From the NCBI GenBank assembly GCA_012270795.1, contig JAAXHO010000170.1, positions 26,426 to 71,731 of the forward strand: 45,306 nucleotides of DNA. Direction: 5' to 3'. Of this stretch, positions 11,502 to 43,880 are shown one piece after another. The position numbers were made by a program, and so were the translations under genes. This DNA is from Candidatus Poribacteria bacterium (GTDB lineage Bacteria > Poribacteria > WGA-4E > WGA-3G). Position 1 is the stretch's first letter, and every line of letters begins with the position of its first letter. A model generated the notes under the pieces. That model made no database searches and was not told the origin of the DNA. It saw only the letters and a program-made list of their open reading frames with translations.

Positions 11502-12371
11502 TTAGTTTCCTGCTGGAGGAATCTCAATATCAATAACCAGATCAGGAAGTTGTTTCTTGAGTTTTCGGAGCGGTTCCATATCCTGAATTGAATTTTCCGT
11601 GAGGTATAATTCCTTTAACTGTATTAGATTCGTGATTGGTTTCATGTCGCTGATCTGATTCCGGTTTAGTGATAACACTTCCAATTGCGTCAAATTCGTG
11701 AGTGATTGTATATCGCTGATTTTATTATCAGAGAGGTATAACGTTGTCAACTGTGTCAACTTTGCAAGCGGTTTTATGTCACTAACTTGATTCAACTCAA
11801 TTCCTAATCTTGCTAACTGTGTTAAATCAGTAAGTGTATTTATGTCACTGATCTGGTTTTTATCTAACCATAACAACTCCAACTGTGTCAAGTTAGCAAG
11901 TGGTTTTATGTCGCTGATTTTATTATCAGAGAGGTATAAATTAGTCAGTTGTGTCAAGTTAGTAAGTGTATTTATATCACTGATTTGATTCGCAACGATA
12001 TCTAAATCTATTAACTGCGTTAAACTTGTCAGAGGTGTTATATCACTAATCTGATTATCCCCAAGGTATAAGTTTGTCAATTGGGTTAGTTCTGAGAGAG
12101 GTGCCAGGTCCTCAATCTGATTCTTACGAAGTTCTAAAGTCTTTAAACCTGTTGCCTTTTCTATTCCCATTAAGTTTTTTATACCTTTGCTGTCAGCACT
12201 AAGTTTCTCTAATGCCTGAAATTTCTTTTGTGATATAGGATCATTTGGACCTAAACCGAGTGCTTCGCGCACAGCTGCGGCTAGGTTATCATCTGAAATT
12301 GTCACTTCTGGTCCAGCTGAGCAACTGAGGAAAATCACTAATAATACAAACAGACTGAAAATGCGTTTCAT
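11502..12371 (-). CDS. LRR lipoprotein, internalin-like
   Basis: About 289 residues from the ATG at 12371. A TTG four codons upstream is the other option, and both have weak ribosome-binding sites. The N-terminus MKRIFSLFVLLVIFLSC is a lipoprotein signal with the lipobox cysteine at about residue 17, so the protein should be lipid-anchored. It carries the shared cap (VTISDDNLAAAVREALGL) and about nine 22-residue LRRs. As the first gene of the tandem set it is the only one with an export signal. The role is probably protein binding at the cell surface. Confidence 0.87.
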   Translation of the reverse strand: MKRIFSLFVLLVIFLSCSAGPEVTISDDNLAAAVREALGLGPNDPISQKKFQALEKLSADSKGIKNLMGIEKATGLKTLELRKNQIEDLAPLSELTQLTNLYLGDNQISDITPLTSLTQLIDLDIVANQISDINTLTNLTQLTNLYLSDNKISDIKPLANLTQLELLWLDKNQISDINTLTDLTQLARLGIELNQVSDIKPLAKLTQLTTLYLSDNKISDIQSLTNLTQLEVLSLNRNQISDMKPITNLIQLKELYLTENSIQDMEPLRKLKKQLPDLVIDIEIPPAGN

Positions 12372-24360: not shown

Positions 24361-24685
24361 GGACGAAAAATCCTGGAATTTATCAGGAGTTTCGTCAATG
24401 TTAAAGATTCTGAGTTGATAACAGACGAATTTCAGGCTTACAACCTTATCGGCAAAGAGATGAAACACGCTGTTATCAATCATCAGGAGCAATTTGTTGA
24501 TGGTGAAACGCATAACAAACACGATAGAGGGCTTTTGGTCGCTTCTCAAGCGTGCCTGGTATGGTTCACACCATCATTATCAAACAGCATACACTCCGCT
24601 ATATGTGGCGGAAGCAGGCTATAAATACAACTACCGAAATCATGATGATATGTTCGGTAAGTTTATTAACGAAAGTATGAGGTGA
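24361..24685 (+). pseudogene. IS1595-family (ISXO2-like) transposase remnant
   Basis: The first frame gives GRKILEFI and then ELITDEFQAYNLIGKEMKHA, and the second gives NTIEGFWSLLKRAWYGSHHH up to TGA at 24685. Both match the DDE catalytic end of ISXO2-type transposases (TDE-x-x-AY, then H-T-N-T-I-E-G-F-W). The frames join if one extra A at about 24514 is removed, which restores GETHTNTIEGFW. The first two thirds of the enzyme are missing upstream of about 24360. This is a truncated and frameshifted remnant that cannot act on its own. Confidence 0.8.
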
Positions 24686-24688
24686 GAA

Positions 24689-24793
24689 ATGACAATAATA
24701 ACTTGGATATTAATGAGATTATCGGTGCTGTTGGCTGATAAGAAAGAATGTTCTTATGCTCCTCATAGGTTATTTCTTCTAACCACTCATTAA
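24689..24793 (+). CDS. Possible small protein after the transposase remnant
   Basis: A 34-residue frame (MTIITWILMRLSVLLADKKE...) follows the transposase stop by three bases, with GAGGTGAG before its ATG. The first half is hydrophobic. Its end overlaps the converging Cys-pair gene by 15 bases. It could be a leftover of the insertion element. Weak evidence. Confidence 0.3.
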   Translation: MTIITWILMRLSVLLADKKECSYAPHRLFLLTTH

Positions 24794-25219
24794 ATCCTCA
24801 AAAACATGTAAACATTCGTTGCAAATAAGATTTTTTTCTTTTAATAGGTGTGTTTCACCCGTTAGGCTAGGAGTTGAAATAAAGGTTTTGTATGTGGCGG
24901 TCATAACATTGACAATTGTTATCATTGTTAATGTGGCGATTCTACAATCATGACATTTCATCCCAGATTCTCTAAAGAACTCTCTCAATCTGAACCCTAT
25001 TCGAGGTTGCATGGGTTTTGAACTTAGTGCACCACAAGGTTTAGGACATAATAAGGCAAATGAATGGAGAAGGTCTTCTATTTTTCCAAAGCCCAAGGGG
25101 GGTTTCCAAGGATTGAATATACCTGCAACAGTATAGGCAGTTCGACATTGATGACATAAACGTGCGTGTTTGGGTGGAAACTCGCTGCCAATAATTGATC
25201 TTAAAAATTTCTTAATCAT
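24779..25219 (-). CDS. Protein with four Cys pairs (zinc-ribbon-like), unknown
   Basis: 146 residues from ATG 25219, which has AAGGG at seven bases. Cys pairs occur as CHQC (about 22-25), CPKPC (about 58-62), CHDC (about 89-92) and CNEC (about 134-137), enough for two zinc sites of the zinc-ribbon type. A mildly hydrophobic stretch (ATLTMITIVNVMTATYKTF) lies between the third and fourth pair. I recognise no family. The gene lies inside the putative inverted-repeat element. Its mRNA leader, 25220-25368, can form strong alternative stems that reach the Shine-Dalgarno sequence, which suggests control of translation. Zinc binding is inferred from spacing only. Confidence 0.6.
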   Translation of the reverse strand: MIKKFLRSIIGSEFPPKHARLCHQCRTAYTVAGIFNPWKPPLGFGKIEDLLHSFALLCPKPCGALSSKPMQPRIGFRLREFFRESGMKCHDCRIATLTMITIVNVMTATYKTFISTPSLTGETHLLKEKNLICNECLHVFEDLMSG

Positions 25220-25368
25220 ATTGTATCCCTTAAATTGTAGGTTTGGTCATCCAGTAAATCCCAACTTCTCACACAAAAGAAGTGGGTATCCCTGGCGACC
25301 AAACCATAACACCTAATTTGCATTAGATATGGGATACCCATAGTCTGATGGTGTTATAGTTTGGTCTG
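25220..25368 (-). promoter_or_regulatory. Structured mRNA leader with competing helices
   Basis: Read on the minus strand, the strand at 25366-25350 (GACCAAACTATAACACC) can pair over all 17 positions with 25313-25297, with one G-U pair. On the plus strand that pair would be an A-C mismatch, so the minus strand is the better RNA. The same 25305-25297 segment (GGTTTGGTC) can instead pair with GACCAAACC at 25248-25240. A second set of strands, GGGTATCCC (25339-25331) and GGGATACCC (25292-25284), is complementary, and GTATCCC also matches GGGATAC (25229-25223), which overlaps the ribosome-binding site. A further stem is at 25286-25260. This predicts at least two exclusive folds with opposite access to the Shine-Dalgarno sequence. 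Confidence 0.6.
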
Positions 25369-25374
25369 TTAAAG

Positions 25375-25404
25375 AGTCTACAATTAAAGAAGTGGGAATG
25401 TCAA
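25375..25404 (-). promoter_or_regulatory. Promoter for the leader and Cys-pair gene
   Basis: TTGACA (25404-25399) and TAGACT (25380-25375), spacer 18, on the minus strand. It would start RNA at about 25368, directly at the first arm of the leader stem. Confidence 0.55.
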
Positions 25405-25463: not shown

Positions 25464-25493
25464 TTGTAATTTGGTGGGAATTAATCGTATAAT
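25464..25493 (+). promoter_or_regulatory. Promoter for a structured RNA candidate
   Basis: TTGTAA (25464-25469) and perfect TATAAT (25488-25493), spacer 18. The predicted start at about 25500 coincides with the first base of the closing stem of the RNA. Confidence 0.55.
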
Positions 25494-25499
25494 TAAGAA

Positions 25500-25612
25500 G
25501 ACCACCAAACACTCAATATGGGGGTGAAGCAGAATGACTATTAGGGTTAGGACCTGGTATTCGCGGGTGCAATACCCGCCACCTCCATAGAGTGTTTGGC
25601 GGTCGTTTTTTT
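25500..25612 (+). ncRNA. Structured small RNA candidate with own promoter and terminator
   Basis: A 15-base closing stem (GACCACCAAACACTC at 25500-25514 against GAGTGTTTGGCGGTC at 25590-25604, one mismatch) is followed at once by G and seven T, as in a rho-independent terminator. Inside it a second stem pairs GGGGGTG (25520-25526) with CACCTCC (25580-25586), and within that lies GCGGGT-gcaat-ACCCGC (25563-25579). An alternative hairpin pairs GGTATT (25556-25561) with AATACC (25571-25576) and excludes the former. No open frame fits. The inner part has tRNA-like size (about 67 bases) and a T-arm-like loop, but lacks a proper anticodon arm. A strong promoter on the opposite strand (25677-25649) means transcription from the other side cannot be excluded. 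Confidence 0.6.
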
Positions 25613-25648
25613 AATTTCAGAGCAGGGTCTATCCTGAACTGTTCATAT

Positions 25649-42762: not shown

Positions 42763-42847
42763 TATAAACCAAACGTAAGGTATATTCTTGCACGACAAAC
42801 GGACAATGTGCAGAATATGCTTGAAATTATTACAAGGAGTGAATATA

Positions 42848-43183
42848 ATGATGAAACTCAATAGAAGGTATATCCGATATTTTGTTGTCGGTATTCTCTT
42901 GGCCTCGTTGGCTTTTGGGAGTTTTGGGTTGATTCGAGGGGCCGCAACCGAGGCACCGCGTGGACTGATACCCATATCTGAACCTGAGTGCATAACAGGA
43001 CAGAACTGTGAAAAACCGAATATTATCTGTCCAAACAAAAGAATAGGCTGTCCTCAAGAGACAGACAAAATTGGTAACCACATTATTCCTGACAGAGGAC
43101 TTATCAACCCCGTAGCAACCGAACCTTGCCCGCAAGACGCATTATTAAGTTCGCAAGGGGACACACAAATAAGGAGAGATTGA
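42848..43183 (+). CDS. Small Cys-containing anchored or secreted protein
   Basis: 111 residues from ATG 42848, with AAGGAG at ten bases (a second ATG follows at once). The N-terminus has a membrane segment (YFVVGILLASLAFGSFGLI). Then come seven Cys in short pairs (ECITGQNCEKPNIICPNKRIGC), which suggests disulfides outside the cell. The C-terminus is polar (SSQGDTQIRRD). No family is recognised. The next gene begins one base after the stop, so they are an operon. Confidence 0.65.
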   Translation: MMKLNRRYIRYFVVGILLASLAFGSFGLIRGAATEAPRGLIPISEPECITGQNCEKPNIICPNKRIGCPQETDKIGNHIIPDRGLINPVATEPCPQDALLSSQGDTQIRRD

Positions 43184-43184
43184 C

Positions 43185-43880
43185 ATGACAAAGCAAGGAC
43201 AGTGGGCAATAATAGGCGGACTCGCGCTGCTTATAGTCGGTTTCATAGCATTGCAGGTCTACCTGTATGTAGATATGAAACGGTTTGAAGAGGAACTTGC
43301 CGGCCCAGAACCCAAAACAGAAACCGAACAACCCTCCGAACAGGGGCAAGTGCCAGAAGTGGATAACAGACCGCCACCGCCAGATGATGGACATGAGTAT
43401 GTGTGGCACGGGGATCACTGGGACCCAGTGGACTCAACGCATGCCACCACCCCACCACCATCTGTTGTTGAAAAGCAGGGGAAGTATGAAGGATCCCTCA
43501 CGTACCACGCAGAACTATTGGAAACACATCCATCTGAAGCTCTCGCCCTCCAATGTGAAGAGCGCGGCCACTGGTCAGCAAAATACATAAAAGGGTATGC
43601 GCCTGCAGATGACCATGTTGCACAGGAATTTGCGAAATTGGTTTATCTTAAAGTTTATTACAATCATCTCTATCGTACAACTGGGAGGATACCCATTCCT
43701 GAAGAAGAGTATCAGCAGTTGCGGGAGGATATAAGGGCTCACCGAGAGAGTTGGGATGCATACAAGCACCTGCCTCTTAGTAACCCTGGCGGGCGTGTGG
43801 GCGCATTGAATAGGTTAGGTTGGCCGCTCATTTTAAGGAACTTTATCGTGTATGACGGACCGATCAGAGTTAATGAATAA
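43185..43880 (+). CDS. Membrane-anchored protein with Pro/Glu linker, unknown
   Basis: 231 residues. ATG 43185, with AAGGAGAG before it. One N-terminal helix (AIIGGLALLIVGFIALQVYLYV) is followed by a Pro/Glu-rich linker to about residue 65. A short HEYVWHGDHWDPVD segment comes next, with several His, Trp and Asp that could bind metal, and then a helical C-terminal part (about 95-231, EEEYQQLREDIRAHRESW). I have a memory of the WHGDHWD phrase in other Poribacteria-like proteins, but no known function. It is the second gene of the last cluster. Confidence 0.7.
   Translation: MTKQGQWAIIGGLALLIVGFIALQVYLYVDMKRFEEELAGPEPKTETEQPSEQGQVPEVDNRPPPPDDGHEYVWHGDHWDPVDSTHATTPPPSVVEKQGKYEGSLTYHAELLETHPSEALALQCEERGHWSAKYIKGYAPADDHVAQEFAKLVYLKVYYNHLYRTTGRIPIPEEEYQQLREDIRAHRESWDAYKHLPLSNPGGRVGALNRLGWPLILRNFIVYDGPIRVNE

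Follow-up and report, generated by a model that had tools for sequence, protein, structure and literature searches.

A structured mRNA leader family with predicted alternative folds in Candidatus Poribacteria

Introduction

Ahead of a small gene of Candidatus Poribacteria lies a stretch of DNA whose strands can pair in more than one way. Does it encode a leader RNA that switches between two folds, and does the choice of fold bear on the gene behind it? The stretch occupies positions 25404-25220 on the minus strand of the window, the 45,306 nucleotides of contig JAAXHO010000170.1 that were analysed here. A sequence-only reading had proposed such a switch, with one fold hiding the ribosome-binding site. 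As checks it named covariation among homologues and an Infernal search of Rfam; it would have yielded to homologues without compensatory changes, or to a transposon-end palindrome that fully explains the repeats.

Results

Architecture of the leader

The leader opens with a promoter, recognised from its sequence and from a promoter scan over 64 homologous elements. Its -35 box TTGACA (25399-25404) and -10 box TAGACT (25375-25380) are separated by an 18-nt spacer, and the latter stands 8 nt before the first complementary arm. This arrangement places the transcript start at about that arm, a1 (25350-25366), which forms the 5′ end of the transcript and the first side of hairpin A. Next come the loop strand s1 (GGGTATCCC, 25331-25339), a mini-hairpin, P3 (CTAA...TTAG, 25313-25326), that recurs across the family when alignment A6 is inspected by eye, and the second arm, a2 (25297-25313). 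Strand s2 (GGGATACCC, 25284-25292) is closely followed by a U-rich tract, TTCTTTT (25275-25281), and then by s3 (25251-25269), the 3′ side of hairpin B as identified by folding and covariation. Last come a3 (GACCAAACC, 25240-25248), a copy of the start of a1, and s4 (GGGATAC, 25223-25229), which overlaps the Shine-Dalgarno sequence AAGGGA (25226-25231) of the ATG at 25219.

These strands allow two mutually exclusive arrangements. In state 1, a1 pairs with a2 and s1 forms a pseudoknot with s2; in state 2, a3 competes with a1 for a2, s3 pairs with s2, and s4 competes with s2 for s1. The long stem (25350-25366 with 25297-25313) is 94% complementary over 17 nt, its sole imperfect pair being a wobble that reads U-G on the minus strand but would be A-C on the opposite one. 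Its rival, 25240-25248 with 25297-25305, is complementary at 9/9 positions; 25331-25340 matches 25283-25292 at 10/10, and 25223-25232 matches 25328-25337 at 9/10. The predicted fold of the window leader, at -63.5 kcal/mol, is far more stable than those of shuffled sequences (-40.7 +/- 4.3 kcal/mol; z = -5.3, 0/200 shuffles). The sequence-only reading had described most of this layout, and its account stands: four complementary strands, a segment (25305-25297) able to pair upstream over 17 positions or downstream over nine, GGGATAC lying over the Shine-Dalgarno sequence, a lone strand-specific wobble in the long stem, and a predicted transcript start at about the first arm.

An uncatalogued family in one phylum

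Across Candidatus Poribacteria genomes, 64 homologous elements were aligned, the window leader among them. About 20 copies, nearly all within genomes of the same family, came from a DNA search of relatives; a covariance model (R1) then reached a diverged second subfamily, and with a further model (R2) the set grew to 64. Subfamily 1, to which the window leader belongs, has 22 elements and subfamily 2 has 42. An R1-fitted alignment (A3) that included reverse-strand matches was excluded. Matches occur in 23 of the 85 genomes of the phylum, with few copies in most and up to 13 per genome, and the named records among them are Candidatus Poribacteria metagenome-assembled genomes. None was found in 291 genomes of another phylum. 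Within the window there is no second copy, all other matches being background of at most 23.5 bits. A gammaproteobacterial pattern match (L113) lacked the structure and was attributed to chance.

The Infernal search of Rfam 15 returned no family at gathering score; the sub-threshold matches below it were mostly microRNA-hairpin noise. A literature search for RNA elements in Poribacteria found no papers. By these searches, the leaders constitute a previously uncatalogued family. Structured leader RNAs with competing folds are a known kind; what is new to these searches is this family and the way in which a long 5′ hairpin, a pseudoknot followed by a U-tract and a predicted three-way exchange come together before exported-protein genes.

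Five subfamily 1 members from different genomes (L006, L011, L017, L019 and L023) share extra sequence 3′ of the leader, for example CCTATCTAAAGCGTGCCACAACTTGA...CGTGTCAACACTTGACC, which may be another conserved portion or a repeat lying next to it.

Covariation of the core helices

Covariation of a1:a2 and s1:s2 was compared with shuffled, slid and tree-based nulls, the last of which preserves the tree along with each column's number of changes over 300 simulations; all were exceeded. In alignment A6, whose fit to hairpins A and B tilts the pair counts in favour of both, hairpin A shows two-sided changes in 18/19 pairs, 93.7% of its cells paired, and 303 double-change cells against a tree-based maximum of 111. 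It is also supported when subfamily 1 is taken by itself, in the MAFFT alignment A2. Across the whole family, the pseudoknot s1:s2 ranks second in support: 95.2% of cells are paired, 6/9 pairs show two-sided change, and its 24 double-change cells lie above all 300 nulls (maximum 21). Hairpin B (s2:s3) is weaker: at 83.7%, its share of paired cells exceeds the null maximum of 79.6%, but its 33 double-change cells fall within the null (maximum 35). When the whole structure is slid along the alignment, pairing drops to 31-49%.

The paired strand can be read from the wobbles. G-U outnumbers A-C by 88 to 17 in hairpin A and by 84 to 2 in s1:s2, which indicates that the selected, folded strand is the RNA reading towards the gene, as had been proposed from the single wobble in the window. 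Judged from this comparative record, the leader structure is under selection and the leaders form a conserved RNA family in which compensatory change is strong. They show the marks of a structured cis-regulatory leader: compensatory changes above the null, a promoter upstream and a same-strand gene downstream. Two other candidate features did not hold across the family. The self-palindrome of s1, TATGGGTATCCCATA, is good only in subfamily 1, and a conserved leader peptide was rejected on inspection: ATGGGTATCC resembles a start codon, several members read TGTAGG, and no frame is kept.

Promoter and U-tract

In 55/64 elements, 6-11 nt separate the end of the best -10 box from arm 1; the distance is about 9 nt in nearly all. 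At the other end of the core, TTTT occurs within 16 nt 3′ of s2 in 56/64 elements, against 7.9 expected. The tract mostly starts 3-7 nt from s2, a wider gap than in textbook intrinsic terminators, and the GC-rich helix that it adjoins, s1:s2, is a pseudoknot. A GC-rich helix with a U-tract behind it suggests that transcription pauses or terminates here.

Evidence for the alternative fold

In subfamily 2, the competing pairings are specific to each element. Across its 42 members, own partners pair better than swapped ones both for a2:a3 (z -6.8, 0/5000) and for s1:s4 (z -4.3, 1/5000); the permutation nulls leave some relatedness, as the controls with reversed partners are not zero (-2.1 and -1.4, respectively), and a swap of a1 against the a3 region gives -1.4. 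The same swap test detects no own-partner preference among the 22 members of subfamily 1 (a2:a3 z 0.1, s1:s4 z -0.7), where the alternative pairing is present in single members.

Predicted folds of growing transcripts show a similar division. In RNAs that end just after the U-tract, a1:a2 is predicted in 22/22 elements of subfamily 1 and 36/42 of subfamily 2; by 75 nt beyond s2 the figures are 19/22 and 13/42, and with the 3′ part shuffled a1:a2 is kept in 22/22 and 34.7/42. Since RNAfold ignores the pseudoknot, the state energies behind these counts are biased against state 1. The three subfamily 1 elements that flip in silico are the window leader, L005 and L007. The window leader was folded both with arm 1 blocked and as transcript prefixes; among the latter, the flip falls between transcript ends 25229 and 25219, as s4 appears.

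Two folds are thus supported by covariation and modelling as a shared trait of subfamily 2, and are a prediction from folding for the window leader. The proposed fold-switching leader gains from the covarying alternatives in subfamily 2 and from the flip of the window leader in silico, whereas the window's own subfamily 1 gives it no covariation support.

The main rival explanation is a static 5′ structure, in which hairpin A and the s1:s2 pseudoknot would stabilise the 5′ end of the mRNA or bind a protein and the complementarity of a3 and s4 would be incidental or a relic. No other helix has support that comes close to that of hairpin A, which is located at the transcript 5′ end, and the 19 subfamily 1 elements that stay in state 1 would fit such a role. 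Two results argue against it: the alternative pairing in subfamily 2 is element-specific, and the flip disappears once the 3′ part is shuffled. We regard it as an unlikely though serious contender.

Position of the Shine-Dalgarno sequence

A second possibility, the original proposal for this locus, is translational control only: state 2 would hide the Shine-Dalgarno sequence through s1:s4 and state 1 would free it. In the window, where s4 overlaps that sequence, AAGGGA is predicted to be mostly paired after the flip (mean unpaired probability about 0.37), and L007 and a few others are arranged likewise. The hidden ribosome-binding site therefore survives as a prediction for the window and these few similar members, but not family-wide. 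In most subfamily 2 members the Shine-Dalgarno sequence lies well downstream of s4, by a start codon whose median distance from arm 1 is 182 nt, and control of translation alone would leave the U-tract unexplained. As a full account of the family it seems improbable.

Genes behind the leaders

The genes behind the leaders usually encode proteins that appear to be exported or membrane-anchored. With gene calls and a hydrophobicity threshold set by our own simple rules, 51/55 first downstream genes with a Shine-Dalgarno sequence encode a hydrophobic N-terminus, against 19/57 in the background (p = 2e-11); counted by protein cluster, the figure is 21/25 (p = 3e-5). The proteins are mostly of 60-500 aa and include one laminin-G-like and one TonB-plug protein, metallopeptidase-like proteins and many unknowns. 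By the same measure the window's own gene is an exception. Its open reading frame (24779-25219, minus strand) encodes 146 aa with Cys pairs, has no hydrophobic N-terminus or export signal, matches no Pfam family and has no homologue in 57 relatives.

Elsewhere in the window, a two-gene cluster (42788-43880) of related exported-protein genes resembles those behind subfamily 2 leaders in other genomes; no leader is detectable there, and a GTAGGTCGGGTAGAGCG inverted repeat lies upstream.

Neighbouring elements and mobility

Next to the leader, at 25485-25640, is a separate inverted-repeat element with 23-nt arms that are 83% complementary. It encloses, on the plus strand, a tmRNA-like acceptor and T-arm; 27 nt of it recur at 93% identity in 11 relatives, at one site in each, and in the three relatives checked with ARAGORN that site lies where the tmRNA gene ends (tag ADQELALAA*). 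The window itself contains no tRNA or tmRNA genes. Longer relatives of this element occur twice in genome G013 and once in G016, where (contig C50, about 11907-12130; L022, L117) it stands beside a stretch resembling the leader promoter, TTGACATTC...AATTGTA, without a leader. The promoter region of the window leader may therefore derive from that element.

Mobility of the leader itself, as a MITE or transposon end whose palindromes account for the repeats, was also considered. Copies do sit at different loci, and the two copies first found in this genome each have an IS1595-type transposase gene nearby. In the window, a frameshifted IS1595-type (ISXO2-like) remnant (24415-24685) closely follows the Cys-pair gene; it was assigned by its similarity to L002:42-737 near the second leader copy. 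Such elements would appear as many dispersed copies unrelated to strand or downstream gene. The leaders have instead strand-biased G-U pairs, a promoter, a same-strand downstream gene with a preference for exported-protein genes, and low copy number in most genomes. Their first downstream genes are not transposases, and no match was found in the phages, plasmids and viral contigs searched. A transposon-end palindrome thus does not fully explain the repeats, and we consider a mobile origin of the structure highly improbable.

A self-cleaving ribozyme of HDV-like nested-pseudoknot topology can practically be set aside: the strand order a1, s1, P3, a2, s2 in the alignment would fit P1, P2, P3, P1′, P2′, but P1 would be 17-20 bp rather than about 7, cleavage would have to take place where the transcript starts, and none of the HDV-like models in Rfam matches. 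A type I toxin-antitoxin mRNA was rejected as well, there being no small hydrophobic toxin downstream and the proteins falling into 25 clusters.

Discussion

We favour the view that these leaders probably represent a new cis-acting family of bistable mRNA leaders of Candidatus Poribacteria, in which the choice of state sets downstream expression. State 1 would form first, as the comparison supports, with nascent hairpin A and the s1:s2 pseudoknot followed by the U-tract. Once the next 50-75 nt are made, a3 is predicted to displace the lower part of a1 from a2, while s3 takes s2 and s4 takes s1, giving state 2; covariation points to this step in subfamily 2 only. The state chosen may then determine the expression level of the downstream gene. 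Most likely, RNA polymerase would either pause or terminate at the U-tract while the leader is in state 1, or read through into state 2, which in the window and a few relatives is predicted to cover the Shine-Dalgarno sequence additionally.

Several known systems offer parallels. Riboswitches and transcription attenuators share the 5′ leader, the mutually exclusive helices, the U-tract beside a strong helix and, as we propose for this family, control of a gene in cis. The leaders differ in that a pseudoknot is the candidate for the terminator helix, that three strand exchanges would take place at once, and that what unites the neighbouring genes is export, not a metabolite pathway. The resemblance to riboswitches is one of mechanism class, no ligand being known for these leaders. 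In H-type pseudoknot riboswitches such as preQ1-II, SAM-II and fluoride, the hairpin loop pairs with a strand just 3′ of the hairpin. The leaders do likewise, but their first helix is much longer (17-20 bp), its sequence is free to vary as long as it stays paired, and no Rfam family matches these leaders. The hok-type metastable mRNAs form a co-transcriptional 5′ hairpin that subsequently gives way to a fold of longer range. The leaders appear to follow the same order of events, although no toxin or antisense RNA is known for them and the downstream genes encode diverse exported proteins.

With this family, an uncultured, host-associated phylum gains a structured RNA class of its own, with 64 examples and a clear covariation record. 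The leader also provides a test case for whether a pseudoknot can act as an intrinsic terminator or pause helix. An RNA switch linked to exported and surface proteins would bear on the symbiont's contact with its sponge. More tentatively, and with considerable doubt, the leaders may form a phylum-specific RNA regulon in which a pseudoknot terminator or pause, undone by three-way strand exchange, would govern part of the exported proteome of these sponge symbionts upon some signal.
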